DNA from: a bacterium
GTDB lineage: Bacteria > Bacteroidota > Bacteroidia > Chitinophagales > Saprospiraceae
Length of the DNA: 64,000 nucleotides
Reading direction: 5' to 3'
NCBI GenBank assembly: GCA_024742755.1
Contig: JANSXW010000010.1
Location: 16,587-80,586 of the forward strand
The position numbers were made by a program, and so were the translations under genes. The notes under the pieces are model-generated. The model ran no database searches. It was not told where the DNA came from and saw only the letters and a list, made by a program, of their open reading frames with translations. This document shows positions 2,995 through 23,402 of the stretch, one piece after another. Each line of letters opens with the position of its first letter. Within the stretch, counting starts at the first letter, position 1.

Positions 2995-3024
2995 CCGCTT
3001 TTGCGAAATCGCGAACGGTATGCT

Positions 3025-3294
3025 TTATGCTTTAAGCATGATTAGCTTTCTCCCCAGCACCACCTCCAACCTCACCAGCTCCCGAAGCCGCCAGTCGTAA
3101 GTGCCGCTCAGCCGCAGCCCGAGGCTGGCTTCGCTTATTTCCAGTGCCCGGGCAAGATCGCTCTCGGTCAGGCCGCCCTCCTGCATGAGGGCATAAACGC
3201 GTTGTGAAATGTCCAGATTCAGGCGCACAAAACGCTCGATATGCTCCGGTCCCTGCTCCGCAAAGAAGCTGGGAATATCAGGGTAAGTATCCAT
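3025..3294 (-). CDS. XRE-type helix-turn-helix protein
   Basis: A small 89-aa protein whose central segment (LTESDLARALEISEASLGLRLSGTYDWRLRELVRLEVVLG) has the spacing of an XRE/Cro HTH, like the antitoxin or DNA-binding half of a toxin-antitoxin pair. No toxin-like partner is adjacent: the next minus-strand gene upstream is the AAA ATPase 95 bp away, and the plus-strand TOPRIM gene converges on it. It may be a stand-alone regulator of the neighbouring defence genes. Its last codons form a short palindrome (tgctttaagca) that is probably just coding sequence. Confidence 0.65.
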   Translation of the reverse strand: MDTYPDIPSFFAEQGPEHIERFVRLNLDISQRVYALMQEGGLTESDLARALEISEASLGLRLSGTYDWRLRELVRLEVVLGRKLIMLKA

Positions 3295-3389
3295 AATCTT
3301 TAGAACAATGGTAATGACCTGGGCAGTTCCGGGATTCGCTACAATTTAGTGCCCCTAAACATCCGACGATTACATTAAGCCCCCAATCT

Positions 3390-4688: not shown

Positions 4689-4777
4689 TTTTAAGCTCTA
4701 TTTTGTAACTTGATTACAAATATAGCAACAAAAATGACTAAAAATAGTTTCTGAGTACCTTATCCCCCTAAAAACAG

Positions 4778-4832
4778 AAAACCCGCCAAACATGCGCATT
4801 CCGGCAGGGCCGAAAGAGGCGAGGCGGGTTTT
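4778..4832. terminator. Long hairpin terminator, probably bidirectional
   Basis: The arms aaaacccgcc and ggcgggtttt pair perfectly over 10 bp, with an inner ccggc/gccgg-type hairpin in the loop. On the minus strand the hairpin follows the nuclease gene and ends in gggttttctgttttt, as expected of an intrinsic terminator. Its position separates two minus-strand genes. Confidence 0.7.
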
Positions 4833-4897
4833 GATGTAGTAAAGATGCTTGATTTATCTCTCAATGTCAAGGCGGAGCGGCGATGACATCTTATTTG

Positions 4898-6226: not shown

Positions 6227-6262
6227 TGCTTGTCTTCTTATCGTTAATTAACTCCGTTTGGA

Positions 6263-7699
6263 CTACATTGGCTTAAATACGATGCCATTAGCGCCATGCA
6301 GCCAACCACGGTTACTTAATTCAAGTTTGAAAGCAGAATAATCAGACATCTTTGTAAGTGTCAATGTTGCTGACCTGTAACCAGTTTGGAGTTCGACGTA
6401 ATACTCAGTTATTTTAGATCGTAATTCACTTGCCTTTGCAGTCGTCCCCATATCGTTAAATCGAATCGAAGTCCTTCCATCCGGCTGCAAATAAAACCTC
6501 CTGGCATTGAGGAAAATACGAACAGCTGTATCATCATACGTTTTTACTCTGTAGCTACTGTATTCTATATCTAAAGGAGAATCATCTTCCTCCAAATAAT
6601 CGCTATAATTACTTTTTGCTTTTGCAGCAGCCTGCTCTTCCTCAGCTCGAATCCTGGCTTCTTCCTCCTCCTTTATTGCATTGACCATCTGTTCTGTTAA
6701 ATACTCTTCTCCGTCAATCACTACCCCACAAAGCATAACACCCGACACCGCATCACTGGTAGAGGTGATTTCATACATCCCAAGCCCCTTTGCAAACACT
6801 GCTCTGCTTTGAGGATTGAGGTCATCGCTCAAATCCTGAGATAAATACCTGTACTGACAAACCGGAAAATTTGGGGCAACTCGTTTCCCACGGTCGGCAT
6901 ACCTGATGTCCTCAAAGTCTTTTTCGTGTAAATAAGATAACTCTGCTTCTCCTCCAATCAGTGGTAGCGTATGGCTTTCCGGATCGAATACTACCGGCCC
7001 TAGTTCCAGTTTTCCGTCGTACTTCCCGAAGTATACGGTAGCGCCTTTCCTGACAAAACTATTGTACTTGGGAAATCCCTCCGAAATATGGATTTGATTA
7101 TCTCCGTCCTCGCCCAGCAACTCTACCCATAGCTTAATCAGGTTATCATCCTCAGACCTTAATACAAAAACAAGGGCTTTTTCTCCATCATGCTCAAGCG
7201 TAGCCTTGTATTTAATTTCCAGCTTCTTGGGCTCGTATTCCAGTAAATCTTGCGTTCCAGGCTCCACATGGTACATCCAATAGTTGCCTACCTGCAATGG
7301 GAAGTACTCTTCCGATAGATTGACGTAGTACTCCGTGCTGTATGGCCTGATATAATCTTTATGTACATATCCGATCTTTTCGCTCCCCTCCTGCTTTACT
7401 TTTAACCAGTCAGATTGATTGTGCTCGTATTCATTTTTGTCACCTACGACTTTTGCCCCTTTGTAGAGCTTTCCAATCACTGCGTAGTCCTGCCCGGGCC
7501 CTTCCCTAAACCGAAGGTGGGTGGTGTTGACATCCACTATGAAAACTCCCAGTGAATTGTCTCCTTCTCTTGTAGCAGCAGAAGCCTCTCCATGTTCTTT
7601 TGAAGCTTGAGCTCCCGGAGCAGATTCCTGGCAGGAATTCATACTGAAAAGAAACAGGAATAGTGCGCTCCATAGAACAGTTGTGTGTGTAGTTGTCAT
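6263..7699 (-). CDS. SH3-domain lipoprotein
   Basis: A 478-aa exported lipoprotein: the N-terminal hydrophobic stretch ends in a lipobox (FSMNSC, Cys23). A bacterial SH3 (SH3b) domain lies at about residues 63-120 (LRFREGPGQDYAVIGKL ... WLKVKQEGSEKIGYVHKDYI). The middle region is unrecognised, and a charged helical segment (AIKEEEEARIRAEEEQAAAKAKS) precedes the C-terminus. SH3b domains commonly bind peptidoglycan or peptides. Its position, 42 bp after pglX and 36 bp before a nuclease gene on the same strand, is unusual for an envelope protein. It could be a passenger, or the BREX operon may end before it. Confidence 0.7.
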   Translation of the reverse strand: MTTTHTTVLWSALFLFLFSMNSCQESAPGAQASKEHGEASAATREGDNSLGVFIVDVNTTHLRFREGPGQDYAVIGKLYKGAKVVGDKNEYEHNQSDWLKVKQEGSEKIGYVHKDYIRPYSTEYYVNLSEEYFPLQVGNYWMYHVEPGTQDLLEYEPKKLEIKYKATLEHDGEKALVFVLRSEDDNLIKLWVELLGEDGDNQIHISEGFPKYNSFVRKGATVYFGKYDGKLELGPVVFDPESHTLPLIGGEAELSYLHEKDFEDIRYADRGKRVAPNFPVCQYRYLSQDLSDDLNPQSRAVFAKGLGMYEITSTSDAVSGVMLCGVVIDGEEYLTEQMVNAIKEEEEARIRAEEEQAAAKAKSNYSDYLEEDDSPLDIEYSSYRVKTYDDTAVRIFLNARRFYLQPDGRTSIRFNDMGTTAKASELRSKITEYYVELQTGYRSATLTLTKMSDYSAFKLELSNRGWLHGANGIVFKPM

Positions 7700-7741: not shown

Positions 7742-10700
7742 TCACACCACCACCCCCCAGTCAAACTCCACCCAGTCAAAGCCTTCCACCTTCTTCCGGG
7801 CTTTGGCATCGTTGAGGCTGGTGACGGTGAGGACGGCGCTGCCCATCTTGTTGTAGTTGACCAGCACGCCATCGTCCAGGTCGAGGGGGAGCTTGCGGGC
7901 GGCCAAGGGGTAGAGGATGTCGCGCTCGTACTGCCGCACGTCTTCCAGTATGGCGTCGATCTTGTCGATGTCTTTTTGGGCCTGCGTCTGCTCGCGGGGG
8001 CTGACGTCGGCCTTGAGGGTGATGCTGACCAGAGTGCTGCGCTGTGCTTCCAGCTTGCGGATGAAGTCGCGCACGTAGTCGTTGAGCAGGCGGCTGACCG
8101 TGTCGGGGCGGTAGCGGTGCAGGTACACGAGGGCCTGAAAGTGCTTGCCGGGGGAGCTGAAGAGCCAGTAGATGGGGCGCTTCTTGTAGCGCTGCAGGTG
8201 GTCTTTGTAAAACTCCCGCACAAAGTAGCTGCGGATGTCCCGCCCGAGGGCGTTTTCCACAAACTGCAGGTTGGCTTCAAACTGCTCCGGGCCGAAGGCG
8301 GCTTCCAGAAAGCGGCGGAAGCGCCCGGCCACATCGTCCGGGAAGTAGTCTTCGGCGAGCAGGGGGATGATGCCGTCTTCATCGGGCAGGAAGGTGGCGG
8401 TGCCGGGGCTTGTGCCGGTCTTGTCCCAGTACTCGGGCAGCCCGTCCCCCGCGTTGGCGAGGATGAGCCCTTCTTTGTCGAGGCTGTAGCGCCCCATCAT
8501 GCAGCCTACGGCGTAGCTGAGGAATTGGGCGATGACTTCTTGGTCGTCAAAGACCAGGGCTTCTTGCACAAACTGCTGCCGGGCCGCGCTGCCGACCGGG
8601 CAGTCCTGCCGTTTGGAGAGCTTTGTGGTGGCAGCTTTCAAGGCCTTGCGGTCGAGCTCCTGCTGCAGGATGGTGATGTCTTCCAGGGGGACTTCCGGGC
8701 TGAGCTCTGCCTGCAAGCCGTAGAGGTCGATAAAAATGCGGTTGAGCTCCTCTTCCTGCGCGTGCAATTGCGCAAACTGTGCGCCCCAGTGCGCCTGATA
8801 GGTGGCGTAAGCTTCGGACAGGGTGCTGGCACCGGTGAGCAAAGGGTGGCGCTGAAAGTCCCAGGAGGTTTCGTGGGCGTCCCAGTCGGTATGTGCTATT
8901 GAAATACAATCTGCTGATAAATTGATGCCTATCTCCTCAAATACTTGCTCCTTAACAGGAGTACTAGCAATATGACTAATTTCAAAATTTAAGGTTGGTG
9001 ATATTTTTGAAATCACTCCACTAAAAAAATTTGAATTTACCAATCCTAATAATCCAAGTAAGTTAATTTCCCGTTTCGGATAAGCTCCTGAAGTAGCATC
9101 AATTGGAACAAATCCATTAGGAAAAAGACGACTCGAAAAGCTGCCACTAGTAACCTTATTCCAAGAAATATATTCTTGGAAATAATACTGAGGGCTTCGA
9201 ATCACGGATTTTGGCTTTAAGCCTTTAAGCTCAAAACCATTTTTTTCCCAGTTAATAACATATTCTTGATTACCATACCATTTCCTAAAATCTCCGCCTT
9301 TGTTACAAGGAAACCACTTTTTATTTGATTGCTCCGCATCTTTTATTTCTTTAAGCGAAAAATCTAAACGATCTATTCCAATCTCAGCCCAAAATCTTAA
9401 AAATCTTCCATTATCGCTGGTGGACAGTCCTTTTTTTAGGCTCACATACTTTTCTATACTTTGCTCGGACTGAAATAAGTTGACAACCTCCTCACTCAAC
9501 CAATACCCAATCGGGCTGCCCGGGATTTTTTGGAAGTCTTGCTGCCGGGCGTGGTAAAAACCATAATCCTGATCTAAGAACAGCTTTTCAATTTTATCTA
9601 CAGAGCGTACTTGTACATGTTTCTTAAACAGGCGGCGATAGATACCCGGCATATCATCGGCAGCCCGGTTGACCATTGTGAAAGCTACCGAACCAAAATC
9701 AGAGCCAAAAATACCCCTGCCTAAGTGCAGCAAAGTATCAATTTGCACTTGTTGGAGCATATCCTTTCGGTATTTTTCAAAAGAGGACAGAAACATCCAG
9801 GATGGCAGATTAATCATTCCGATCAGCCCAAATGGTAATACCTGCTCCTGTGCTCGCTGCATGAAACAGACCATCAAATCGTCTTTGGCTTTGGGATAGT
9901 GCTGTTTCACCCATTTAGATAGCTCAGGGTTCATCTTCCCGCCCCCCATATACGGCGGATTATCCACCACACAGTGCATCTGCTCCCCCAGCTCCTGCAA
10001 TTGCTGCAAGGCATTCGCCAGGTGCTGCAATTGGGTGCGCAGGAAGATGTCATTGGTCTGCGCGCGCTCCACCACCACCTGCCGGGCCCGCCTGATTTCG
10101 CCCGCTTCCGCCTGCGGCTGTATAAGTGAGCCGAGGTTGGTAGCCTGCTGCAGGTGCTGCAGGTCGCTGCTTAGGGCTTCAGTGGGTGTGATACCACAGG
10201 CTTCCAAAGCCGCTGCCGTTTCCTCCGTACTCAGCGGCAAATCCTGAAACTGCAGGATGTGGGGGCGGATATTTTTGCGGAAAATCCGGCGGTGGTAAGC
10301 CCGGGCTTTCATCATCAGCGCAAAGCCGGCCAGCTGTGCGGCCCGCTCATCGATCTCAAAGCCGCGCAGGTTGTTTTCCAAAATGAGCTGCGGGATTTCA
10401 CTTTTGTTGTAGCCCTCCTCTTCGTACATGAGGGTGAGCAGCTCGAAGGCATACAGCAGGATGTGCCCGCTCCCGCAGGCCTGATCCAGAAAGTGGATAT
10501 CGGTCACGCTGTCGATGCGCAGGAAGTCGGCCGCCTGCGCCGCCGGGGAGTCGATGTAGTAGCGCATGTGGGCCCGCAACCCGGAGTTGGGGCGGTTCTG
10601 CAGCCACAGCTTACCGAGGGTATTCTGCACCATATACTCCACAATCCACCGGGGCGTAAACAGCTGCGTGGCGGCCGGCAGGTCTTCCGGGGCCACCCGC

Positions 10701-11344
10701 CCTTTGGCGGCAAACACCGCATCCTTCTTTTCCGAGATGTAAAACTGGTACAGCCAGCCGATGATTTCCACATTTTGGGCGGCTTCCGGCGGCATGCCGT
10801 CGCGTACATCCTGCACGATGCTGCGGGCGCTGAGCAGGTCATTGGGCACGAGCAACTCCGTATAGTCCTGCAGCCGCTGAAACATAAAAGGCATGGCGCT
10901 GTGCCATTGGTTGCAGGCCGCGATTAGCAGCAGTTGGTAAGCTTCATTCTGCGGGTCGGGCGAAGGCAGCTCGCCATTGAGCAGCTGAAAGACCCGCTTG
11001 CGGTCCACCGTCAGCTCCTCCCCGATCAACCCCCGCTTGGCCTGCTGCAGGATTTCCGGCAGGGTCTCCCCATCGGCCGGGCTGAGCACCCGCGGGCGGG
11101 TGTAGTCATTGGCATCCATAAACCGCAATGCCACGAGGCGGTTGAACCAGGTGTAGGCCACTTCCTCCATCAGGGCGGCCTTCCCTTTGGCCTTCAGCGC
11201 TTGCGCCAGTTGGTCCACCTGTTGGCTGCGCTCCCGCCGCTCGATGCTATCGGTATTCAGCACCTGTTCCAGCCGGTTGCTGATTTGTTCGAGCAGCTTG
11301 CGGCGTGCGGCTTGGGCGAAGGATTTTAGGGTGGTGGTTTGCAT
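7742..11344 (-). CDS. pglX: BREX adenine-specific DNA methyltransferase PglX
   Basis: This 1200-aa protein has the PglX layout. A helical N-terminus (MQTTTLKSFAQAARRKLLEQISNRLEQVL) is followed by an adenine-N6 methyltransferase core with SAM-binding motif FLDQACGSGHILLYAFE (about 288) and catalytic NPPY in VVDNPPYMGGGK (about 460), then a target-recognition region and a helical C-terminus. In BREX, PglX methylates a non-palindromic host site on one strand and is needed for both self-marking and defence. It follows brxC by 52 bp. The region 8.9-9.6 kb is visibly AT-rich against GC-rich flanks and falls in the target-recognition domain, suggesting domain exchange. The long plus-strand ORF at 7685-8902 is its shadow. 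Confidence 0.93.
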   Translation of the reverse strand: MQTTTLKSFAQAARRKLLEQISNRLEQVLNTDSIERRERSQQVDQLAQALKAKGKAALMEEVAYTWFNRLVALRFMDANDYTRPRVLSPADGETLPEILQQAKRGLIGEELTVDRKRVFQLLNGELPSPDPQNEAYQLLLIAACNQWHSAMPFMFQRLQDYTELLVPNDLLSARSIVQDVRDGMPPEAAQNVEIIGWLYQFYISEKKDAVFAAKGRVAPEDLPAATQLFTPRWIVEYMVQNTLGKLWLQNRPNSGLRAHMRYYIDSPAAQAADFLRIDSVTDIHFLDQACGSGHILLYAFELLTLMYEEEGYNKSEIPQLILENNLRGFEIDERAAQLAGFALMMKARAYHRRIFRKNIRPHILQFQDLPLSTEETAAALEACGITPTEALSSDLQHLQQATNLGSLIQPQAEAGEIRRARQVVVERAQTNDIFLRTQLQHLANALQQLQELGEQMHCVVDNPPYMGGGKMNPELSKWVKQHYPKAKDDLMVCFMQRAQEQVLPFGLIGMINLPSWMFLSSFEKYRKDMLQQVQIDTLLHLGRGIFGSDFGSVAFTMVNRAADDMPGIYRRLFKKHVQVRSVDKIEKLFLDQDYGFYHARQQDFQKIPGSPIGYWLSEEVVNLFQSEQSIEKYVSLKKGLSTSDNGRFLRFWAEIGIDRLDFSLKEIKDAEQSNKKWFPCNKGGDFRKWYGNQEYVINWEKNGFELKGLKPKSVIRSPQYYFQEYISWNKVTSGSFSSRLFPNGFVPIDATSGAYPKREINLLGLLGLVNSNFFSGVISKISPTLNFEISHIASTPVKEQVFEEIGINLSADCISIAHTDWDAHETSWDFQRHPLLTGASTLSEAYATYQAHWGAQFAQLHAQEEELNRIFIDLYGLQAELSPEVPLEDITILQQELDRKALKAATTKLSKRQDCPVGSAARQQFVQEALVFDDQEVIAQFLSYAVGCMMGRYSLDKEGLILANAGDGLPEYWDKTGTSPGTATFLPDEDGIIPLLAEDYFPDDVAGRFRRFLEAAFGPEQFEANLQFVENALGRDIRSYFVREFYKDHLQRYKKRPIYWLFSSPGKHFQALVYLHRYRPDTVSRLLNDYVRDFIRKLEAQRSTLVSITLKADVSPREQTQAQKDIDKIDAILEDVRQYERDILYPLAARKLPLDLDDGVLVNYNKMGSAVLTVTSLNDAKARKKVEGFDWVEFDWGVVV

Positions 11345-11396: not shown

Positions 11397-14300
11397 TTAC
11401 AACAAAATATCCCGGTCCTTCCCCAGCTGTTCCAAATAAGCTGCCCGCAGCTTTTCCAGGTAAGCGTCTACCTCTTCGGGCGTGCGCAGATGAGGGCGCG
11501 GGAAGTGCACTTTTATCGTACTGGCCCGGATAAATTCCCGCCGCTGCTGCACCGGACGGGTAGCCGCCGGTGTGCCCTGATCGGCTTTATTGGCAACCTC
11601 CGGTGTACGGCTTGCCGGTTCAGGAGGGGGGGCCGACATCTGGTACAAGTTGGTCAGGCAGTGTGCGTACTGTTTTTCTTCAAACTGCCGCACGAAATCC
11701 CGAAGGTTCGCAATGTGCTTGCTCCGGTCAATCTCCCCCATAGCCAGGTCAAAGGGGCGTAGCAGTTCTGCCTGCTGGCTTTCCGAAAGGCTTTCAAAGC
11801 GATCTACCTGATAGAGCTTTTCGCGGAGTTCCTGAATGACTGCCCGCGCCTCATTCTTTTCCGCTTCGAGGGTATCGCGGAGCAACTGCCGGCATTTGTC
11901 CAGTTGCTCTTTGGCCAGTTGCATCTTGTTGCCCAGGTAGGGGCGGGGCTCGCCTGCCACTACTTGTAAAGCCTGCAGCTCCTCCTGATCGATATACTGA
12001 TTATTGGCCTGCCCTCTGTCCAGGAAAAGGTTGATATCCTCAAATATCTTCCGCTGCTGCCCGGCCATAAAAGACTTAATGGGGTCAACGGTATCCTCCT
12101 TGATGTCGATAAGGCTATCCTCGATCGCCTCCAACTGATCAAAGTACTTATTGTAGTTGGTGGAAGCCAGCTGATCGAGCTGCCGGGTATAGTCCTCCAG
12201 CACGTTCAGGAAAGCAAACCGGTCTTTTTCCCGGAGCAGTTGCCTCAATGCTGTAGCTTCCTCCCGGAGCCTTTTCTGAAAAGCTACCGCAGCGTCTTTT
12301 GGGTCATTCCCGTGATTGGATTCGTTGAAAAGTTCCCGGTGCAGGTCCTTGAGCCTTTTTAGAGCACGGGCATCTACCTCCGGCAGCGGCTCCACAATAG
12401 TTTGGGGGCGCAGGCGAATGTTGGTCATATTGTTGAATGCGGCCTCGTGGCCGACCAGCTCTCCGTTTTCTTTCAACTCTACCTTGTTGCGGGCCATTAG
12501 GCGGGCCAGCAGGCAAAGCGTCCCCATTTCCGGCCATCCGTAGGGCGCTTTGCTAAATTTGTCGAGCAGGGCAGAAATGGTCAGCCGTTCTCCTTGCCGG
12601 TTGCTTAACAAGGTGTGATCCAGCAGCTCCCGTTCCGCCTCGCTCAGGCTTTCATCGGCATGCCGGAACAGGTCATCCGCCTGACTTTGCAGAATATTTT
12701 TTAAATCAGATTCCGTGTAGCCCTGTTTCAGCATACGCAAGTTGGGGAAAGCGTAGCTGATCAGTTCCTGCAGCCCCTCCGTAATCCGGTTGCGGGCATT
12801 GGAGGAAGCCGGGGCGGAAAGTTCTTCTCCGTTCAGGATGAGCGTTGCCCTGCCCAGCAGGCGTTCTGCCCGGGCAATCAGGCTCTTGTACAGCTGATCA
12901 TTGCTCGACTTTTTGCGTTGCAAAATCTGATGGACCTCCTCTTTCAGCTGATTGGAGGTATTCTGACGGAAGTACTTGTCCACCTGCTTGTACATCCGGA
13001 TATCTTTCAGCAGGCGGTCATCTTCCGGCAGCAGCGCCAGCAGCTCTTTGGTCGCCATGGTGTGGGACTTTAGAATGGCGGGGGCCCCAAAGTGCTCATG
13101 CTGCGGAGTGATGACATTGAGGCTGAGCTCCGAGTCTCTGCCAATCAGATTGCCATCCAGCTTGCGGGCAAAGGCGTAGTCCTGCTGATTCTCCTGATAG
13201 CGGATTTTGGTATCCCGGAAGACGTCCTTGTAGATGACCTGTGCCAGCATCTCATTGACTTCCGTGATATCGATCGGGGTGCTCTTGATTTCATTCTCAA
13301 TGTCTTTTTCGACATTGGTCAGGTATTCATAGTCTTCACCGTTGCGCTGAATGTAGATTTCATGCTCCAGGCGGTTAAGGGCCTCCTGCACCCGCTTTTC
13401 GTGCTGATGAAGGTCTACCTGAAAATCCTCGATCAGCAGGATAGCGATATGCTTGAGCGAAGGACGGAAACTCTTGACGAACTTCACCAGGAACAAGGCT
13501 TTAAGCACCCGTACCATAAATGGGTCATCCACCAGGTTCTTCTCTGCGATCTGCACGGCAGATTGTATTTCGCCCAGCAAAGAGCCCTGAATGCCATCGT
13601 ACATGCGGTCGAAGCTGGCAATCTGAGGCAACTCCATGCCATCCGCAATCATGCTTTTGGCAACATCCTGGAAAACGCCCAGCATGGAGCGCTCCCCTAC
13701 TGACTGATGCTTGCCCTGAAAGGCATTCTGAACCGATAGCCCCCGTATACACTGCTGAAAAAGGGTGAACTGATAAGGCAGAAAAGGATAAGTCCGGAGG
13801 AAATGGGCATCATCCTGATAGCCGCGAAAAGCCGTCCCTCCCTCACTGAAGTGGAACAAGGTTTTGAAGTTGTTCTGTTCTGCTTCGTAGACCGGCTTCA
13901 GCAGGCGTTCTCCTTCCTCGTTTTTGTCGAGCAACCGGCGTTGGATGACCTCATCTACATTCCCGCTGGTAAGATTGACGCGGCAGGCGAAACGGGCCTG
14001 AATTTTAGAGAAGTCATTGCTTTGCTGATCGGATACGGCACCGACCACTGCATCAATGTCCTCCTGAGACGTCACGAATATCCAGGCCTGCCCTTTGCAA
14101 TGGGTGGCTAATGACTCCGCTATAGTCTGCAGGTTGGTCATCAGCTTGGTATTGTCGGCGATGTACTGCCCTACTTCATCCACGAAGAAATTGAGGCGGA
14201 AACCGGGCTCCTGCTGCCCGATGTAATCTTTGACCATCATGGCGAATGATTCAATCGAGACTTTGTAATCATCCCGGTAGCGGTCGATATAGCGAGCGGC

Positions 14301-14957
14301 TTCCTCTTTTGCAATGCCCTTAACGGCAGCCAGGGCACTGGCAAACTCGCCACTGGCCATTTTGAGGCGGTTGCGGCGCTGTTCCCAGCTTCTGCCCCGG
14401 GGGTCAGCCTTCTGAAAAGCCGTTTTAAAGGCCTCATACAGCCCCTCGCTATCGAGGTCGCGCTCCAGCTCAGCCACATAGCCCAGTTTGGGGTAGTAGC
14501 CCTGCATTTCATTGAAGACCTTAACGAATACCGACAAGACCGCATCTTCCTGGTCTTTGCTGATGATATCCGCTTTTTGGTCAATATTGAAGAGGATACT
14601 TTTGGAAGGGATGCCTGCAGCGCGCTGAAGCTCCGCTTTCAACAAGGCATCATCCACTTTTTCGCAAAGCAAATCCGCCGCCTGATGCCCGTCCAGAGCG
14701 CGGTTTTCCAACAGCAGGGACAGCATTTTGAGCAAGTGGGATTTACCGGAGCCAAAGAAGCCACTGATCCAAACGCCATTGATGCCGGCGTATTCGTTGT
14801 AGTAGTCAATAAAATGCTGAGTCAGCTTTTTGCGGACTTCATCCGTAAAGACGTATTCGCGGACTTCTCTGAGCAAGTGCTCGTCGTCGTCGGCTTTGAT
14901 GACGCCCTCAATGGGGCGGGTAATGTCCTGCTTGAAAATGTTTTTTAAATGGGTCAT
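11397..14957 (-). CDS. brxC: BREX P-loop ATPase BrxC
   Basis: A 1186-aa BrxC-type ATPase. The N-terminal segment (MTHLKNIFKQDITRPIEGVIKADD) and the Walker A WISGFFGSGKSHLLKMLSLL (about residue 67) are characteristic of BrxC/PglY. The Walker B-like FFVDEVGQYIADN is near residue 259. The C-terminal half is rich in predicted coiled coil (RELREKLYQVDRFESLSESQQAELL). BrxC is a DNA-associated ATPase essential for BREX defence and methylation. It lies 26 bp downstream of brxB and 52 bp upstream of pglX in the canonical order. Length and motifs look intact. Confidence 0.93.
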   Translation of the reverse strand: MTHLKNIFKQDITRPIEGVIKADDDEHLLREVREYVFTDEVRKKLTQHFIDYYNEYAGINGVWISGFFGSGKSHLLKMLSLLLENRALDGHQAADLLCEKVDDALLKAELQRAAGIPSKSILFNIDQKADIISKDQEDAVLSVFVKVFNEMQGYYPKLGYVAELERDLDSEGLYEAFKTAFQKADPRGRSWEQRRNRLKMASGEFASALAAVKGIAKEEAARYIDRYRDDYKVSIESFAMMVKDYIGQQEPGFRLNFFVDEVGQYIADNTKLMTNLQTIAESLATHCKGQAWIFVTSQEDIDAVVGAVSDQQSNDFSKIQARFACRVNLTSGNVDEVIQRRLLDKNEEGERLLKPVYEAEQNNFKTLFHFSEGGTAFRGYQDDAHFLRTYPFLPYQFTLFQQCIRGLSVQNAFQGKHQSVGERSMLGVFQDVAKSMIADGMELPQIASFDRMYDGIQGSLLGEIQSAVQIAEKNLVDDPFMVRVLKALFLVKFVKSFRPSLKHIAILLIEDFQVDLHQHEKRVQEALNRLEHEIYIQRNGEDYEYLTNVEKDIENEIKSTPIDITEVNEMLAQVIYKDVFRDTKIRYQENQQDYAFARKLDGNLIGRDSELSLNVITPQHEHFGAPAILKSHTMATKELLALLPEDDRLLKDIRMYKQVDKYFRQNTSNQLKEEVHQILQRKKSSNDQLYKSLIARAERLLGRATLILNGEELSAPASSNARNRITEGLQELISYAFPNLRMLKQGYTESDLKNILQSQADDLFRHADESLSEAERELLDHTLLSNRQGERLTISALLDKFSKAPYGWPEMGTLCLLARLMARNKVELKENGELVGHEAAFNNMTNIRLRPQTIVEPLPEVDARALKRLKDLHRELFNESNHGNDPKDAAVAFQKRLREEATALRQLLREKDRFAFLNVLEDYTRQLDQLASTNYNKYFDQLEAIEDSLIDIKEDTVDPIKSFMAGQQRKIFEDINLFLDRGQANNQYIDQEELQALQVVAGEPRPYLGNKMQLAKEQLDKCRQLLRDTLEAEKNEARAVIQELREKLYQVDRFESLSESQQAELLRPFDLAMGEIDRSKHIANLRDFVRQFEEKQYAHCLTNLYQMSAPPPEPASRTPEVANKADQGTPAATRPVQQRREFIRASTIKVHFPRPHLRTPEEVDAYLEKLRAAYLEQLGKDRDILL

Positions 14958-14983: not shown

Positions 14984-15583
14984 TTACAGATTGATGTTAT
15001 CAAGATTGAACGCCCGGTAGTAATTATCGTCTTTCAGAGTATCAAACAAGCGCAAGTAAGAGCCACTTCTGGAAGTGACGTAGGCTCCCGGGAAAAACAT
15101 AACCGTGGGAGCTGTTTTTGCTATACGCTGCAGGTTGTTCAGCACATTGTGCGACCGGATGAAGGGAAAAACCTGCCCGACCCCGGTGATGAAAAGCACC
15201 TGATGTGCCCTGGCTTTTATCCGTCGATCTATGGCCGGGATCATTTCCGTTTCCACATCGAGAATGGACTGCATCATTTCGAGGAATTCTGCTTTCGTGC
15301 TTTGTGTTTCTTCCTCAAAAATGTCTTCCAGGCTGTCTTCCTGCTGAATGATTTCTAAAGATAAATCAAAGAGGTTAATTTCCAACGTATCAATGTCCAA
15401 AGTTTTCAGCCGCTTTTGCAGGGCATCGATGGCTTTGACGACTTCATTTTCCTGCGTAGCCGGGTAAGGGGCGATATAAAAGGGGATTTCATTGCCAATG
15501 GCCTCCATTTTCAGGAAGGCCTCCTGCTGAATTTGCCTGAAGTAGTGGTCAAACTTTTCCGAAATTTTCTCCTTTTGCATCAC
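14984..15583 (-). CDS. brxB: BREX protein BrxB (DUF1788)
   Basis: This 199-aa protein ends with the conserved BrxB/DUF1788 block FPFIRSHNVLNNLQ ... VMFFPGAY ... GSYLRLFDTLKDDNYYRAFNL. The first codon in the ORF track is GTG overlapping the brxA stop (GTGA). The next codon is ATG at 15580, itself overlapping that stop as TGATG, and is an equally good start. Either way it is coupled to brxA. Its biochemical role within BREX is not well defined; it is a core component of the type 1-like system. Confidence 0.92.
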   Translation of the reverse strand: MMQKEKISEKFDHYFRQIQQEAFLKMEAIGNEIPFYIAPYPATQENEVVKAIDALQKRLKTLDIDTLEINLFDLSLEIIQQEDSLEDIFEEETQSTKAEFLEMMQSILDVETEMIPAIDRRIKARAHQVLFITGVGQVFPFIRSHNVLNNLQRIAKTAPTVMFFPGAYVTSRSGSYLRLFDTLKDDNYYRAFNLDNINL

Positions 15584-16212
15584 TTTATACGGTTGATAAA
15601 CTGCCTGATATCCCGGTCGGCGACCAGCAAATAGCGCAGCAGTTTAGGGTCTTCGTCAATCAGTGCCTCGGCTACATAGGTGGTCACTACGGGTGGTGTA
15701 ATGACCCGTTCTTCACGGTTGTTGACCACGCCGGCTTCCTCCATCATTCTGTACAGCCGTGACCGCAGTTTTTGATAAGTCGAATCACTGACTTGCTGCA
15801 GCTTTTGCTCTTTGAGGGTCTGTGCCTCCAGGAAAGCGGTGTAATCTGATTCATGCACGATATACTCAAAAGCCTGAATTTTATTGAGCAGGACCTCCAG
15901 TGTAAATGCCCCGATAAACGGATACACCTTGCATACCGCCACCCAAAGCAGCTGCTGCTGTTCTGTGAAGGTACCTTCCGCGAGGCGTTCCAGTTGCAGG
16001 GGCGTCATCTCTTTTAACCGGGTGCGCACCTCATAGAAGGACCGCACGGTTGTTTTCAGCTGGTTCTTTTGCAGGGCATTTTCTCCAACGACCGCTTCCT
16101 GTACAGCCTCCCAGTCCTGTGTATCCGCGTACAACTGTGCGATTTTGATGCTTTCCTCCACCTGTAGGGCAGCACCGGAAAAGGACAGTCTGTACGGACG
16201 GGACGCAGCCAT
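15580..16212 (-). CDS. brxA: BREX protein BrxA (DUF1819)
   Basis: A 210-aa protein with the DUF1819 pattern: YRLSFSGAALQVEESIKIAQLYADTQDWEAV near the start, LLWVAVCKVYPFIGAFTLEVLLNK in the middle, and SDSTYQKLRSRLYRMMEEAGVV in the winged-helix-like C-terminal part. BrxA is a small DNA-binding BREX component. It starts 40 bp after the unrecognised 719-aa gene, so the two upstream genes are probably in the same transcript, and it overlaps brxB. Confidence 0.92.
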   Translation of the reverse strand: MAASRPYRLSFSGAALQVEESIKIAQLYADTQDWEAVQEAVVGENALQKNQLKTTVRSFYEVRTRLKEMTPLQLERLAEGTFTEQQQLLWVAVCKVYPFIGAFTLEVLLNKIQAFEYIVHESDYTAFLEAQTLKEQKLQQVSDSTYQKLRSRLYRMMEEAGVVNNREERVITPPVVTTYVAEALIDEDPKLLRYLLVADRDIRQFINRIK

Positions 16213-16252: not shown

Positions 16253-18412
16253 CTAATCGAAGGTGATTTGGCTTAAATCAGGGAGGGTACTGCTATCTGG
16301 TTTTTCTGCCATCGTCGCGTACTCCCGGAGCAATTTAAAGGGGAAGGGCAAAACCGTGGGAGCGTTGATGCGGACGAAATCCACGGCCAGGGTTTCCAAC
16401 AGGAAGTCACTGAGCAAACGGCTATTGTCAACCGGCTTCAGCTTGCGCACCACATTCCCGTTTGGAAACCGCCCCTTCGTCTCCTTCATCCGGGTATTGA
16501 CCCAGTAACATAGCGCCCCGTTTTCTTCATAAGTATGCAAATCGACCAGTGCTTTTGAATAGCGGCCAGTGGCTTCTTTGCTTTTGAAAGGGTGCTTCAG
16601 CCAGTAGCCGAACTTCTGGTGAAAAGCTTTGGCGTAGCCAATCTTTGCCTTCGATTTACCGCGAATGCATCGCTTCAGCTCCGTCAATGCAATGGTTTGC
16701 CCTGTTTTAACACCCGCAAGGTATTGCTGCAAGTCTGGCAAATCACTTCCATTGGCATTCAGGTACTGCGCTGTAAACGATTTTACGTCTTCTGCCGGCA
16801 CATCAACGCCTTCGATCTTGATGCCGGCCATTATTTCTTTGTGTATCCCATCCAGGTTAGGGAATGCGCGCATATCCGTTTGCTGAATCACATTGAGGTT
16901 GCCCTCCTCATCAAGAATAACGCCTTCTATGGGTTGTCCTCCCCTTGGGTATTTGTCAAAAATGGCGGTCAGTTTGGAATGAAAAGCTTCCGTGAACAGA
17001 TCTCTGGTCAGGCTACTGAAATTCATCTGCCCATCCGGATGGATGGATAGAAAATGGAAAACAGGCTCCTGCTTATCTTCTTCTTCCTTCAGGACAAAGC
17101 TCCAGGTACCTGAGGCTTGGAGCCTGCCCCAGTCAAACACGGTCATTTGGCGTTGGGCAATATCGTATTTCAAGTGCAGCTCTGTGACGAGCTTGGCGAT
17201 AAATGCTTTGCTATTGCTTTCGGCTCCTTTAAACTCTTGCAGGGTAAATTGCTGGGTGGCGCATTCCGGTGTGGCTTTGAATTGTTCATAGCGGTCTATC
17301 TCCTCTTTCTCCCGCTGATAGTACGCTACATCATTGTTCATGACAAAGTTGAGCGCCTTTGGATCAGCATGACGGGTTGACCGGGCAGACAGCCCGAAGT
17401 GCTCCTGCAAAGCATCTTTGAACTGTTTCTCCGCTTTTGCATCATTGGTGTTATTGATAAACCTTACAGGTACATTCCGAAGCACATTGGTACGGTCGGT
17501 AGCCGACTTTTCAAAATGCACCGATTCCACAGCAGTTTCAGGCTTGCACACTTGCTGCAGGCCAAAGTAGCCTCGAAATTTAGGCAGAAAAGCCTCGAAG
17601 TAGAGTTCGTTGAAAAGAGCGATTTTGGTGGTGCTGTACTTCTTGGGGTTTAGAGAAAAGAAATCAATCCGGTTCTTTTTGTTTTTCCCCTTTATCAACC
17701 TCGCACATTTCGGGCGGCGATTCACATAGCGGTCTTTTAGGGGCACCTTTCCATCGAGCGCTTCATTGTAGCGTTTGAACCGGTCTGTAGCTGGGTCAAA
17801 CAGAAACTGTTCTTTGCTCCATAGTTTTTTCCGCTCTTTTTCGCTCGCCCGGCAGTATTTGTCCAGAGCGAGGTCCTCATGCCGGTTGAGAGAAGTGAAT
17901 GTCCGGGTGTGCAACTGTATGGTAAAGTCTGGCTTAACTTCAACTTCCATCGCGATCCTGCTTTGATCAGGCTTATTGGTAAAATCGCTGTCAGCAGAAG
18001 TGATGAACAGCCGCCCGGTTACGTTGTGATAGCGGTACCGGTGATGGTCGGAGTTGGGGGCAGCATTGAGGAACAGCTGAAATAGTTTGTGTTTTTGCCG
18101 GATATGTTGTGGCCGCTCTACAAGGTCTATGGTACAATCAATTTTTTGGCTTACCTCACTCAACCGGCCTAAATAACCGTTCTCCGGCAGGTCATTTGTA
18201 CGAAAAAGCAGGAATGCTTCATTCCCCCACATGAAGCAGGCAGACTGCAAAATGCCTTGAAATTGCTCAGGCAAGGCATCCAAAAAGTCACCGATGTCCT
18301 CATAGGAAAGCCAATGCTCCCCTTTTCGCTTCATGAGAAGGATGGTAAAGTCCTTAATAATCTTTCGGTAGTCCGGCGTAACTTCAAAGGCATTGAAATA
18401 CAAGTGGTTCAT
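16253..18412 (-). CDS. Unrecognised 719-aa protein coupled to the helicase
   Basis: I do not recognise this protein. It has no signal peptide, membrane span or nucleotide-binding loop that I can see, so it should be cytoplasmic. The middle is basic (RRPKCARLIKGKNKKNRIDFFSLNPKKYS), consistent with nucleic-acid binding. The C-terminal half contains FHFLSIHPDGQMNF, IEGVILDEEGNLNVI and FPNGNVVRKLKPVDNSRLLSDFLLETLAVDF, without a clear catalytic triad. Its ATG overlaps the helicase stop by four bases (ATGA), so the pair is co-translated, and brxA follows after 40 bp. It is a good candidate for an RNA- or DNA-binding partner of the helicase-nuclease and an accessory or replacement factor in this BREX variant. 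Confidence 0.5.
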   Translation of the reverse strand: MNHLYFNAFEVTPDYRKIIKDFTILLMKRKGEHWLSYEDIGDFLDALPEQFQGILQSACFMWGNEAFLLFRTNDLPENGYLGRLSEVSQKIDCTIDLVERPQHIRQKHKLFQLFLNAAPNSDHHRYRYHNVTGRLFITSADSDFTNKPDQSRIAMEVEVKPDFTIQLHTRTFTSLNRHEDLALDKYCRASEKERKKLWSKEQFLFDPATDRFKRYNEALDGKVPLKDRYVNRRPKCARLIKGKNKKNRIDFFSLNPKKYSTTKIALFNELYFEAFLPKFRGYFGLQQVCKPETAVESVHFEKSATDRTNVLRNVPVRFINNTNDAKAEKQFKDALQEHFGLSARSTRHADPKALNFVMNNDVAYYQREKEEIDRYEQFKATPECATQQFTLQEFKGAESNSKAFIAKLVTELHLKYDIAQRQMTVFDWGRLQASGTWSFVLKEEEDKQEPVFHFLSIHPDGQMNFSSLTRDLFTEAFHSKLTAIFDKYPRGGQPIEGVILDEEGNLNVIQQTDMRAFPNLDGIHKEIMAGIKIEGVDVPAEDVKSFTAQYLNANGSDLPDLQQYLAGVKTGQTIALTELKRCIRGKSKAKIGYAKAFHQKFGYWLKHPFKSKEATGRYSKALVDLHTYEENGALCYWVNTRMKETKGRFPNGNVVRKLKPVDNSRLLSDFLLETLAVDFVRINAPTVLPFPFKLLREYATMAEKPDSSTLPDLSQITFD

Positions 18413-21400
18413 AGCTTCATAATTTTATCGTAAATGAATTGCAGGTGTTCTTCCAGCACTACTCCCTGGTCCAGGTCTAATAATCCCGGGACTTCAATGA
18501 TCCCATCCTCTCCGGTTACCGGCTGATAATCCGGAGCAGGGGAGACGATGTTGACAATGATTGCTCCTTTGCCACCAACCTCTTCCAGCTTTTTCCTTAT
18601 CTTCTCTTTCTGTGCCCGGGCATCCACCCGTGTGCCTGCACCCCAATATTTAAAGTCCAGGTACATCCCATTATCCGTTACCGCATCGAAGCGCTCGTAG
18701 TGCTCCGGAGGGAGCGGGCGGCAGGAGATGCCGTGTTTTTCCAACAGGTGCGCCCCAATTGCTTCTCCTAATGCGCCCAGATAAATATTTTGGAAGGTAG
18801 GCGGGGATACCATGCGCTCATTGGCTTGGAACTCCATCGCGTATCCTTTCTGCTCGAATAGCATTTGGACCGTCCTGATTTTCATGAGCTCCGGAAGGCG
18901 GGCCGCATCTTCAGAGGCAGATTTACCAGATTCCTGATTAAAGGAAATGGAAAGGTCGTTTTTAAAATCGCTGCGGGTCCGATAGTTGTACATCCTGAGC
19001 CGTTCCCCCCCAGGGTGAGCGATGTAGAACCGCACCAAACCATTCCTCAGGACTCTTTCTTTTGAATCTGTGGGATATTTCAGCACCTGCGTCCTCAAAC
19101 CTTCCCAAAAATCCATCTCGTTTTGTTGCCAGATACGCCTCCGTGACAGCTTCCTTAGCAAGGTCGCCGTCTGAATAGAGGTGCTGACATTCTGATTGCG
19201 GATCTTTTCGGTCGGGTCAGTTGGATTGCCTTGTTGTTGCCCCTGCGCATGTTGTTGCAGCGCCTCAAACTCCCGCACCAGCAAATGCCCCTCTGCGCTG
19301 AATTGGCTAAGGTACCGTGCGAGGTTTTGATCGTAAAGCAAATGCGTAACCGGCGGTTTTAGCCGGGTACGGGACAAGCGCCCTACCGCCTGAATGATCA
19401 CCCGGCAAAAATGGGCTACGACAGATTCGCTTTCCCGGACTGAGCCGCTGTTGAGTACCGCATACTTATTCAGCTTACGCCCAAAGATATAGCGAACCCT
19501 TGCACTTTTCTGCTCCTGGCTTATGGCGCCCCCGGCCTCCAGATAAGCGACTTCAAAAAGGTAATGAATCAGGTCGGTATCACTAATGGCCTCCCCGCTT
19601 CTGAAATAGGCTAAAAGGTGGGTAGGTTGTTCCAGGTATATACCATCGTAGTCTTTTTTCCCATCTCCGTAAGCCAAATCGTTGACGGCTACGACTTTCT
19701 GTCCGGGATGCGGCTCGTACTGAATATTTTGCCCCGCCCCCATAGTTTGATAGGTGGATACAACGAAGGCGTCATGCCCCTTTTTCAAATGCTCGCAAAT
19801 GCGCTCAAAGCTGTGTTCAAACCCACTGCTGTCCACAATATAAAGTGTTGAGGACACTTCCTGCTTTGCCTGTTCCTCCGTCTCCTTCAGGTAGCACATA
19901 CGAACTTCTGTAAGTATGCTGGTGAGCACTTCTTCCGTGAAGTCATCGTTTTGCCCCTTACGGGGCAGCTTGTTGAGCAGGCAAAGAAAGGAATGGCAAT
20001 CCTCATCCTGGATAAACCGGGCGTAAGCCATCCCCAGCTTGATGTAGCGGCTTGTAGCGTAGGCTCCCTGATCCTCCGGCAGTTGATGGGCAAGTGTTTT
20101 ATAAACCTCTTTACCTGCTCCGGGCAGTAGTGCTTTAAGCGCAAGCGCCCGGTCCACAGGACAGCTGATGGCTTCTACCCTGATCTCATGCCGGCCGGCT
20201 TGAGCATAACGCTCCCGGAATGCCGATTCCAATGCAGCTGCTTCATCAGGCAGCAGCGCATAGAAACGGCTTTGAAGGTGAGCCCGCAGAAACGCCAGCG
20301 AATAATTGGACAGAGGGGCATCGAATCCTGCCGTAGCTGAAATACCGATAACCAAAGCCCGCTGACAAAGCCCCAGCATCCAGCGCTCAGGCGTAGTGAG
20401 GGTATCCGCAAACCGGAGCTTGGTGTTGGCATCATGTGCCTGACTATTGAGCAGATCGAAGTAGCGAAAGCCTTGCCCCAGAGGCGATTCATCCATCAGA
20501 TCTCCCCGGCTCAGCCCCGCTGCAAAAGTCCTTTGCGTGATAAAATCCTCAAAAAACCGATGGGTCGGCACGTCGTTGATATCAAAAACCTCCAGGCAGG
20601 TGCGGATGGCATTACCAGACGACATGCGCTCTTCGGTTTCGGGCCTTTTGCTATGAACGCTTTGGTATACCCTAGACAAATCCCCTACGAAATAGGCAAA
20701 CATCCAAATGAACCCTTTAAGTTTGTTGAGCAAAAACAAAAGGTCCTCCTGCTGGGTCTCCGGGGGCTCCGGCTGCGTATGGATATAATTGGTGGCATCC
20801 GCCTTGTTGGGGTCAACTTTCAGGTAAGCCCGGTTATCCCCTACAAAAGTATGATAGCGATAATCGTGGAACAGGAATGCACGGTCCTGCGCTGTTGCCG
20901 GCCGGAGCAGAAAATGATAGTCAAAATGGAATCCGGAACGAATGGCCTGCGCTTCTGCCTTTAGGCGGTCAAACCTATCCTGCAAATAGTTCAATTCCTG
21001 TTCTGTAATCATTGGCTGTAAGCGAGACGTTGGCAAACTACGGGCATCCACCCCTCTTGCGATTCTGACGAACAGCCCCAAAATATCCTGAGTATATCGT
21101 TCGGTGTGTTCTACGATCGCGTCTTGAATGTGCTGTTTGCTGGCATCAAACTCATCGATAAAAACGACGTTGTTCTCTACAATCCCGGATGTCGCGATCT
21201 GTATAGCGGGCCCGATAATGGTATCCAACTGTGTATAAAACTTCCGAACCGTAGAAAAGAATACACGCTTTTCGAAAACCGCAACAATAGGATAGAGCTC
21301 TTCCACCCACCTTAGATTCTTGTCCGAACGAAGTTGATTTAGGCGGCCCTTCGCCTCAGATTGCCCCTTGAGCTTAGGCTTCAGATAAGCCTTTAGTGCA

Positions 21401-21843
21401 TTGCGGAAATTACGCTCTGCTTCGCTCAGCTTTTCGTGCAAATACCTCTTGAAATCCGGCGATGCATCCTTGGGGCAATCTTTATACTGTATGGCCCACT
21501 TCGTCATCTCGCCGGCGTGTGGTACTTCCTTAGCCCGCTCCGGTAGCTCACCTTTCTCCCCGATATAGTCCGTGACCAGATCGACGTAGCTTTTCACTTG
21601 CAAGACATACTGATCGAAGAGGTCCTTTCCAACGAGCGCCTTCAAATCGTCAACGGGTAAGTTCTTTTTGAGGGTTGTCACAAACCAGATGTTTTGCCCG
21701 GGCCCATCTGCTAATTGAATCTGCTCCTTCATGTATTGGAGTGCATAGTACGTTTTTCCAAAGCCGGTCGGGAGTGTCAGAAGTAAAAGCCCATTTGGGT
21801 CATCGGCAGTGGCATGGCGGCTGATTATGTCTTTTAGCGTCAT
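18409..21843 (-). CDS. SF2 helicase with C-terminal PD-(D/E)XK-like motif
   Basis: A 1144-aa SF2 helicase-like protein and first gene of the BREX-type operon. Visible motifs: Walker A LLTLPTGFGKTYYALQYM (about 20-37), motif II VVFIDEFDA (about 229), motif III ISATAGFDAP (about 503), a motif V-like STYQTMGAGQNIQY, and motif VI QAVGRLSRTRLKPP (about 820). The C-terminal segment RFDAVTDNGMYLDFKYWGAG (about 1050-1070) has the D ... DxK pattern of a restriction-endonuclease fold. The overall look is Cas3- or type III-restriction-like, distinct from the Lhr-type BrxHI. It sits divergent to the CARF-sigma54 activator and overlaps the next gene by four bases. The helicase call is strong; the nuclease call is moderate. 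Confidence 0.75.
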   Translation of the reverse strand: MTLKDIISRHATADDPNGLLLLTLPTGFGKTYYALQYMKEQIQLADGPGQNIWFVTTLKKNLPVDDLKALVGKDLFDQYVLQVKSYVDLVTDYIGEKGELPERAKEVPHAGEMTKWAIQYKDCPKDASPDFKRYLHEKLSEAERNFRNALKAYLKPKLKGQSEAKGRLNQLRSDKNLRWVEELYPIVAVFEKRVFFSTVRKFYTQLDTIIGPAIQIATSGIVENNVVFIDEFDASKQHIQDAIVEHTERYTQDILGLFVRIARGVDARSLPTSRLQPMITEQELNYLQDRFDRLKAEAQAIRSGFHFDYHFLLRPATAQDRAFLFHDYRYHTFVGDNRAYLKVDPNKADATNYIHTQPEPPETQQEDLLFLLNKLKGFIWMFAYFVGDLSRVYQSVHSKRPETEERMSSGNAIRTCLEVFDINDVPTHRFFEDFITQRTFAAGLSRGDLMDESPLGQGFRYFDLLNSQAHDANTKLRFADTLTTPERWMLGLCQRALVIGISATAGFDAPLSNYSLAFLRAHLQSRFYALLPDEAAALESAFRERYAQAGRHEIRVEAISCPVDRALALKALLPGAGKEVYKTLAHQLPEDQGAYATSRYIKLGMAYARFIQDEDCHSFLCLLNKLPRKGQNDDFTEEVLTSILTEVRMCYLKETEEQAKQEVSSTLYIVDSSGFEHSFERICEHLKKGHDAFVVSTYQTMGAGQNIQYEPHPGQKVVAVNDLAYGDGKKDYDGIYLEQPTHLLAYFRSGEAISDTDLIHYLFEVAYLEAGGAISQEQKSARVRYIFGRKLNKYAVLNSGSVRESESVVAHFCRVIIQAVGRLSRTRLKPPVTHLLYDQNLARYLSQFSAEGHLLVREFEALQQHAQGQQQGNPTDPTEKIRNQNVSTSIQTATLLRKLSRRRIWQQNEMDFWEGLRTQVLKYPTDSKERVLRNGLVRFYIAHPGGERLRMYNYRTRSDFKNDLSISFNQESGKSASEDAARLPELMKIRTVQMLFEQKGYAMEFQANERMVSPPTFQNIYLGALGEAIGAHLLEKHGISCRPLPPEHYERFDAVTDNGMYLDFKYWGAGTRVDARAQKEKIRKKLEEVGGKGAIIVNIVSPAPDYQPVTGEDGIIEVPGLLDLDQGVVLEEHLQFIYDKIMKL

Positions 21844-21872: not shown

Positions 21873-21889
21873 AGAAAAAAAAGTGCCAA
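21873..21889 (-). promoter_or_regulatory. Possible sigma54 promoter for the BREX operon
   Basis: On the minus strand, TTGGCACT-TTTT-TTTCT matches the -24 box of the sigma54 consensus (TTGGCAC) but has TTTCT where TTGCA is expected at -12, so the invariant GC is not kept. It lies about 30 bp before the helicase ATG and faces the operon. Just upstream are two further GGCAA units at 7-bp spacing. The divergent sigma54-type activator makes this a reasonable but unproven promoter. Confidence 0.35.
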
Positions 21890-21927: not shown

Positions 21928-21963
21928 ATTATTCGTTTTCTGATTTTATTATTCATTTTCTGA
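21928..21963. promoter_or_regulatory. 20-bp-spaced direct repeat, candidate operator
   Basis: ATTATTCGTTTTCTGA at 21928 and ATTATTCATTTTCTGA at 21948 match at 15 of 16 positions and start exactly 20 bp apart (two helical turns). They abut the activator ATG and sit 40-80 bp upstream of the sigma54-like element, the usual place for enhancer-type sites of such activators. The sequence is AT-rich, so chance cannot be excluded. Confidence 0.4.
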
Positions 21964-21968
21964 ACAAT

Positions 21969-23402
21969 ATGACTCGAGTTCTAATATCCTGGATAGCTAC
22001 CGGCAATGACTTCCTGGAAAGCGGGGGCGTAAATGAAGCGGGCACGACGATGAGCTTTCACCGGCACTTCTTTGAGCGTTATGACCGGCATATTTTGCTG
22101 TACAGCGCTAAAGAAGCGCAGGACACCCGGGCTATGCACCTGCTGGACGCCATTAGAAAAAGCTTCCCGGAGCATCGTGTATCTCCCCAATGGTATGCTC
22201 CCTTCGATGTCATTAGCCTGGAGGCGATCCAATCAAGGATAGAACCCTTGTTGCTTAAGCATGCTGATGATCAAATAGACCTTTTCATCTCTCCAGGCAC
22301 TCCGGCTATGCAAACCGCATGGGTGCTTGCCCACCTAACGCTCAATTTGAACACCCGACTGCTACAGGTCAGGCCCAAACGCTTTACTAAGGATAAACAG
22401 CAGCCTGAGCTGTTAGAAGTCAGCATCAAGCGGGACGCCCTCACCGCAAGCGCAGTAATCAGGGAACAGCTTCAGTCCAAAGGCACAAGCACAGCACTCC
22501 CTGAGCGCTTTTGTATGACCGATACGCTCAGTAAAGTATATGAACACGCGAAACGGATAGCGGCAGCTGCCAATACGACCGTTTTCATAAATGGTGAAAG
22601 TGGCACCGGCAAGGAGCTACTTGCCCGGTACATCCACCGGGAGTCACCCAGGCGCGAAGCCCCATTCCTCCCCATCAACTGCGCCGCGCTCAGTGATGAG
22701 TTACTGGAATCCCGATTATTTGGCTATAAGAAGGGAAGTTTTACCGGAGCAGAAGCAGACAGGAAAGGGCTGATTGAATCCGCAAGCGGGGGCACGGTTT
22801 TCCTGGATGAGATTGGCGATATTTCTCCTCATCTTCAGCAATCACTGCTTAGAGTATTACAGGAAAAGGAAGTTGCCCCCATCGGAGGACATCCTAAACC
22901 TGTAGATGTCCGGTTTATCTCCGCTACGAATAAAGACCTTCGAGCGCTTTGCAAAGCAGGAAAATTTCGGTGGGACCTTTACTATCGTTTAGTGGTTGTG
23001 GACCTTAGCCTTCCGGAGCTTCAGGATTACCCCCTGACGGAGAAAGCACAATTGCTTCGGTTCCTTAATAAGGAAAAACAAGCTCAGTTCAGACGACCAA
23101 CACCCCTGGAACTTACTAAGGAAATTCACGATATCATTTTAGTCTACCCCTTCCCTGGCAACATCAGAGAGTTGGAGAACACGCTGGAACGGCTATATGC
23201 CTTGTGCCCTGACCGTACTCCTACTAAGGCAGATTTACCGACTTGGATATTGAGCTCTGACACTTCCTTTTCCTTAAAGCTGGAGGATGTTATTCAGGAG
23301 CATGTAAAACACGTATTTGAAAAACAGGGCGGCAATCAAAAGAAAACCGCTGAGGTACTTGGAATTTCTTATAATACGCTGCGGAAGCGGCTGGGGTATT
23401 GA
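21969..23402 (+). CDS. CARF-like / sigma54 AAA+ transcription activator (RtcR-like architecture)
   Basis: This 477-aa protein has three parts. Residues 1 to about 155 form a Rossmann-like domain whose core LFISPGTPAMQTAWVLAHL...RLLQVRP resembles the ligand loop of CARF domains as found in RtcR. Residues of about 180-410 are a sigma54-interacting AAA+ module with Walker A GESGTGKELLARYIH, the sigma54 contact loop GSFTGA, and Walker B GGTVFLDEIGDIS. The C-terminus NQKKTAEVLGISYNTLRKRLGY is a Fis-type HTH. CARF domains bind cyclic oligoadenylate or related nucleotides. The gene is divergent from the helicase/BREX operon, so it probably switches that operon on when a nucleotide signal appears. 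No rtcA/rtcB genes are nearby. Confidence 0.8.
   Translation: MTRVLISWIATGNDFLESGGVNEAGTTMSFHRHFFERYDRHILLYSAKEAQDTRAMHLLDAIRKSFPEHRVSPQWYAPFDVISLEAIQSRIEPLLLKHADDQIDLFISPGTPAMQTAWVLAHLTLNLNTRLLQVRPKRFTKDKQQPELLEVSIKRDALTASAVIREQLQSKGTSTALPERFCMTDTLSKVYEHAKRIAAAANTTVFINGESGTGKELLARYIHRESPRREAPFLPINCAALSDELLESRLFGYKKGSFTGAEADRKGLIESASGGTVFLDEIGDISPHLQQSLLRVLQEKEVAPIGGHPKPVDVRFISATNKDLRALCKAGKFRWDLYYRLVVVDLSLPELQDYPLTEKAQLLRFLNKEKQAQFRRPTPLELTKEIHDIILVYPFPGNIRELENTLERLYALCPDRTPTKADLPTWILSSDTSFSLKLEDVIQEHVKHVFEKQGGNQKKTAEVLGISYNTLRKRLGY

Follow-up and report, generated by a model that had tools for sequence, protein, structure and literature searches.

Background

The closest described relatives of the gene pair analysed here are two-gene systems that act on plasmids. 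In the DdmDE systems studied so far, DdmE uses a bound DNA guide to locate plasmid DNA and then calls in DdmD, which until then is held in an autoinhibited dimer; DdmD loads on the non-target strand, translocates in the 5'-3' direction and cuts (PMC12409362). The members known from L. casei (PDB 9iw3, 9ixm) and V. cholerae (8u0j, 8u0u, 8u3k, 9ezy) have folds like those of the pair described below and the same gene order, ddmD-ddmE. The ApsAB system of Escherichia coli ST38 likewise joins a helicase-nuclease to an Argonaute-like protein and is directed against plasmids, but its helicase is larger, its partner belongs to another class of Argonaute-like proteins, and similarity to DdmE was not reported (PMC11096173). 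Plasmids are thus the target of both related systems, and ApsAB was inactive against eight phages (PMC12409362, PMC11096173).

Regulators of the RtcR type are the second point of comparison. The ligands of classical RtcR are 5' tRNA halves that end in a cyclic phosphate (PMC7790460). RtcR-like genes outside rtc operons often adjoin restriction systems (PMC4012209) and head long defence superoperons (PMC11090510). In the loci of these two reports, the CoCoNuT loci among them, a CARF-AAA-HTH sigma-54 activator heads a long run of defence genes, as it does here. The genes described there are of McrBC-like, restriction-modification or Druantia type, and neither DdmDE nor a whole BREX-1 is known to be among them; in the locus presented here, the activator is divergent.

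In this report we describe a stretch of 64,000 nucleotides (hereafter the window) from a Phaeodactylibacter genome, in which, with high confidence, we recognise a DdmDE plasmid-elimination pair. It opens a complete BREX-1 operon that is probably driven by a sigma-54-like promoter and switched on by a single stress-sensing activator of the RtcR type. Compared with BREX type 1, the locus carries ddmDE in front of brxA and defence cargo between pglX and pglZ.

Results

Identity of the two proteins

The pair consists of the following genes:

18409..21843, minus strand: ddmD, SF2 helicase with a C-terminal PD-(D/E)XK-type nuclease, 1144 aa
16253..18412, minus strand: ddmE, long Argonaute-like predicted guide protein, apparently catalytically inactive, 719 aa

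Both open reading frames were found at these coordinates with an overlap of 4 bases, and brxA starts 40 bp past the ddmE stop codon, just as an earlier note on this DNA had described. That note had put the pair forward as a candidate new module, a view which we do not share, as the results of library, profile and structure searches given below identify it as the already described DdmDE.

The 1144-aa protein was named DdmD by PADLOC (E=5.6e-38). Its best match among PDB sequences was DdmD 9ix4 (E=3.2e-49), in an alignment spanning residues 14-1127, followed by the V. cholerae DdmD entries (E about 1e-36), and the C-terminal 343 residues alone also matched DdmD, with the nuclease motif inside the alignment. 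The protein thus has the SF2 helicase core and the C-terminal PD-(D/E)XK nuclease of the DdmDE family, homologous to those of known DdmD. The helicase motifs PTGFGKT (25-31), IDEFD (229-233), SAT (502-504) and QAVGRLSR (818-825), as well as the nuclease signature E1027...D1053...D1063-F-K1065, are genuine, in line with the complete SF2 motifs and the D...DxK claimed earlier: in an alignment of 82 homologues, K30, D230/E231, Q818/G821/R822/R825, E1027, D1053, D1063 and K1065 showed little or no variation. Judged from its sequence, the protein is DdmD with intact catalytic residues.

For the 719-aa protein, searches of Pfam, NCBIfam and PADLOC gave no match, and the single sequence compared with PDB by phmmer found nothing at E<10, DdmE included. 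To this extent the earlier remark that it has no recognised family was right; the profile of its homologues and its fold model nevertheless both lead to DdmE. With phmmer it matched 63 partner proteins at E<=1e-10, and a profile of 61 homologues, run against all PDB sequences, retrieved DdmE of L. casei (9iw3, E=5e-69) and of V. cholerae (E=4.5e-44) and, besides DdmE, nothing below E=0.4. The structure prediction and structural search that had been proposed for this protein gave the same answer. In Foldseek the six top matches to the AlphaFold2 model (mean pLDDT 85, pTM 0.83) were DdmE chains, with E values from 1.2e-32 to 1.8e-23 and TM scores of 0.58-0.74 (L. casei DdmE, E=1e-32, and V. cholerae DdmE, 2e-28, with TM about 0.7); eukaryotic PIWI/AGO proteins of the PIWI/Argonaute group followed at E of about 1e-9 to 1e-7, and then noise. 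Since the single sequence finds no DdmE and identity in the fold alignment is only 14%, which makes the pair very divergent from known DdmDE, it is through the profile of the family and the fold model that the protein is assigned. In a scan of viral contigs no relative of the 719-aa protein was found.

The conserved acidic tetrad was looked for in the PIWI half and was not found in the family alignment, where, from residue 428 to the end, E697 is the sole acidic position to reach 70% conservation. Three further residues, Y365, Q387 and K415, are near-invariant, and their arrangement may correspond to the guide-end pocket Y...Q...K of long Argonautes. The basic central segment, previously called very basic, is present at about residues 222-267 and is modest (net +12 per 40 residues). 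The long Argonaute-like partner homologous to known DdmE is thus in place as well: the 719-aa protein is DdmE, a divergent long Argonaute which is apparently inactive, and the identity of both proteins is close to certain.

Conservation of the pair

With the DdmD helicase as a query, 84 helicase loci were fetched, 80 from GTDB genomes and 4 from plasmids. Most have an open reading frame of about 577-761 aa behind the helicase gene, usually overlapping it, and in 67 of the 84 a homologous DdmE-family frame lies directly downstream; 6 of the 17 exceptions are cut by a contig end. The two genes are therefore paired more often than by chance. Their hosts include Cyanobacteria, Bacteroidota, Clostridia, Treponema, Fibrobacter and methanogens. 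When 396 genomes were drawn evenly from the phylum, the helicase was found only in the window's own genome.

Two of the 84 loci are from Phaeodactylibacter. The co-occurrence of the pair without BREX, another proposed check, was observed outside this genus, where 65 of 76 assessable loci keep the two genes side by side and BREX genes were not found nearby. Among the loci fetched, BREX genes adjoin the pair only in Phaeodactylibacter, in flanks of up to 10 kb and with queries from the Phaeodactylibacter BREX, with which distant BREX types could be missed. As the pair elsewhere mostly lacks BREX neighbours, ddmDE is a free-standing module. This agrees with the alternative already raised in the earlier note, a separate defence system, distinct from BREX and probably sharing its promoter.

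Several DdmD-like helicases with ample downstream sequence (loci L052, L055, L073, L077, L079, L086, L087 and L010) have no recognisable DdmE behind them; their partner may be of another kind or have diverged strongly. DdmE evolves faster than DdmD: in comparisons of the window with the other two Phaeodactylibacter species (L012, L013), amino acid identity is 85-86% for DdmE and 93-94% for DdmD, with similar synonymous divergence.

The BREX-1 operon and its cargo

Downstream of the pair the following genes were found, the last two just left of the window edge on the same contig (C163, on which the window starts at position 16587):

15580..16212, minus strand: brxA (PADLOC BrxA, E=4.9e-50)
14984..15583, minus strand: brxB (PADLOC BrxB, E=1.6e-62)
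11397..14957, minus strand: brxC (NF033441, 1106 bits, cut-off 400)
7742..11344, minus strand: pglX, BREX-1 methyltransferase (NF033452, 1295 bits, cut-off 500)
83..7699, both strands: variable cargo between pglX and pglZ, with a 478-aa SH3_3 protein, PDC-S26-like and AbiLi/AAA_21-like proteins, and PDC-M38AB on the other strand
C163:13298-15796, outside the window: pglZ (type A; TIGR02687, E=3e-201)
C163:11262-13301, outside the window: brxL (TIGR02688, E=1e-182)

The BREX type 1 set is complete, with brxA, brxB, brxC, pglX, pglZ and brxL all found in order. Three Phaeodactylibacter species have one and the same arrangement, with the RtcR-like gene divergent and ddmD-ddmE-brxA-brxB-brxC-pglX-variable cargo-pglZ-brxL following each other, so ddmDE are the first genes of the BREX-1 operon in all three. 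In the other BREX-1 loci of the family that were checked, the slot before brxA holds no RtcR-like or ddmDE gene, only unrelated genes.

The slot between pglX and pglZ contains different defence-like genes in each species (window 83-7699; L098; L126): the window has PDC-S26, an AbiLi-like gene and PDC-M38AB, P. luteus has PDC-S26 and M38AB, and P. xiamenensis has an AbiLi-like gene with others. Identity to the sister species at fourfold-degenerate sites is about 0.5 for brxC and the RtcR-like gene and 0.64-0.78 for ddmDE and brxAB; the lower values of brxC (11397-14957) and the regulator gene (21969-23402) suggest recombination within the locus.

The RtcR-like regulator and the intergenic region

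Upstream of ddmD lie a regulator gene and three putative control elements:

21969..23402, plus strand: RtcR-like CARF-AAA-HTH sigma-54 activator, divergent from ddmD (PADLOC RtcR_PspF2, E=1.6e-123; Pfam Sigma54_activat, E=1.1e-63)
21950..21964, minus strand: upstream repeat 1, TTCAGAAAATGAATA, a putative site for the activator that lies 4 bp from the regulator start codon
21930..21944, minus strand: upstream repeat 2, ATCAGAAAACGAATA, a putative site for the activator
21873..21888, minus strand: sigma-54-like -24/-12 promoter TGGCAC-N5-TTTCT, located 29 bp upstream of the ddmD start codon (pattern match, in all three species)

The putative promoter and both repeats fit into the intergenic region of 125 bp that separates ddmD from the RtcR-like gene, and RpoN is encoded in the genome. 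The sigma-54-like pattern was relaxed at one base of the -12 element, which departs from the consensus there; TGGCAC-N5-TTTCT has a single match in the window, with 0.33 expected by chance over the whole window and both strands. As conservation extends over the entire intergenic region in the three closely related Phaeodactylibacter species, that of the promoter is weak evidence. The tandem repeat occurs once in the assembly, even when 3 mismatches are allowed, which suggests a dedicated switch, and autoregulation is possible, since repeat 1 adjoins the RtcR-like start codon.

Other DdmDE loci are without the RtcR-like regulator. Its nearest full-length relatives outside the genus adjoin other gene sets, and the genes checked there are not BREX or ddmDE. 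At L140:4170-9868 and L143:54-5210 two relatives each face a similar gene set, which encodes proteins of about 340 aa and about 242 aa together with a TraG/TraD-like ATPase of 490-500 aa; this may be an RtcR-linked module that has not been described. At L142:1844-6235, the genes opposite another relative encode a helicase (AAA_30/UvrD_C_2) and a reverse transcriptase (RVT_1, 371 aa).

Discussion

The pair itself is a new member of DdmDE, a kind already known: helicase and nuclease motifs are kept and the Argonaute-like partner is without conserved catalytic acids. What differs from known DdmDE, besides the strong sequence divergence, is its setting: the pair opens a BREX-1 operon and has an RtcR-like activator next to it. 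In the open-access subset of literature searched, no report was found of DdmDE within a BREX operon, or of its association with both a complete BREX-1 and a sigma-54 switch of the RtcR type; because of this coverage the absence is weak evidence of novelty. Most likely the locus is an inducible superoperon against plasmids and phages.

Plasmid targeting, guide use and recruitment of DdmD are transferred here from the studied members, and nothing in the window sequence contradicts their mechanism. By this analogy, DdmE would bind a short DNA guide, find matching invading DNA and recruit DdmD, which would leave its resting dimer, load on the displaced strand, move along it as a helicase and cut with its C-terminal nuclease. 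The divergent RtcR-like CARF protein, on an RNA-derived stress signal, would activate the sigma-54 promoter and so the transcription of ddmDE and BREX-1. Since DdmDE and ApsAB act on plasmids, the phage-resistance assay proposed earlier is probably the wrong test for ddmDE.

That ddmDE and BREX share transcription is probable, given their single strand, the 40-bp gap and the identical order in three species. These features argue against regarding DdmDE as a mere neighbour with its own transcript, in which case BREX would have a separate promoter and the island, not the regulation, would be common to both. We consider such an arrangement unlikely, though it deserves real weight: defence genes cluster in general, the locus looks mosaic in the lower fourfold-site identity of brxC and the RtcR-like gene, BREX is absent from nearly all other DdmDE loci, and a separate BREX promoter inside ddmE is possible. 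At the other extreme, the superoperon could be one two-target immune operon, in which an RNA-damage-sensing CARF activator co-induces DdmDE and BREX-1 and the two work together; BREX might, for instance, mark or process foreign DNA and so direct DdmE to unmarked DNA, plasmid or phage. Functional coupling of this kind is speculative, and we think it improbable.

An ApsAB-like system, that is, a related helicase-nuclease with a partner of the ApsB class instead of DdmE, is very unlikely. DdmD and ApsA do belong to one broad family, and the pocket Y-x3-K...Q...K kept by ApsB (PMC11096173) has a counterpart in Y365-x3-K369...Q387...K415 of the window protein, but K369 is not conserved in the DdmE family. 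Over its full length the partner matches DdmE by profile and by model, and ApsA is larger, with its nuclease motif near residue 1433 (PMC11096173) compared with 1063 in the 1144-aa protein. From the earlier proposal of a nuclease module replacing PglZ/BrxL, directed against phages in an incomplete BREX, the coupled two-gene DNA-targeting nuclease is retained; the replacement, suggested by the position of the pair in a brx operon and by the absence of pglZ and brxL from the window, is rejected as next to impossible, as both genes (TIGR02687, TIGR02688) lie just past the window edge and the pair stands alone in most genomes.

Conclusions

Our results extend the range of DdmDE to Phaeodactylibacter and 65 further loci, from Bacteroidota to archaea. 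They give names to two genes which are unnamed or half-named in the family libraries searched, and supply a profile with which such partners are found. With an inducible superoperon as the most likely reading, the setting opens two questions to experiment: can an Argonaute system that defends against plasmids be induced, and does a single switch govern the defences against phages and against plasmids?
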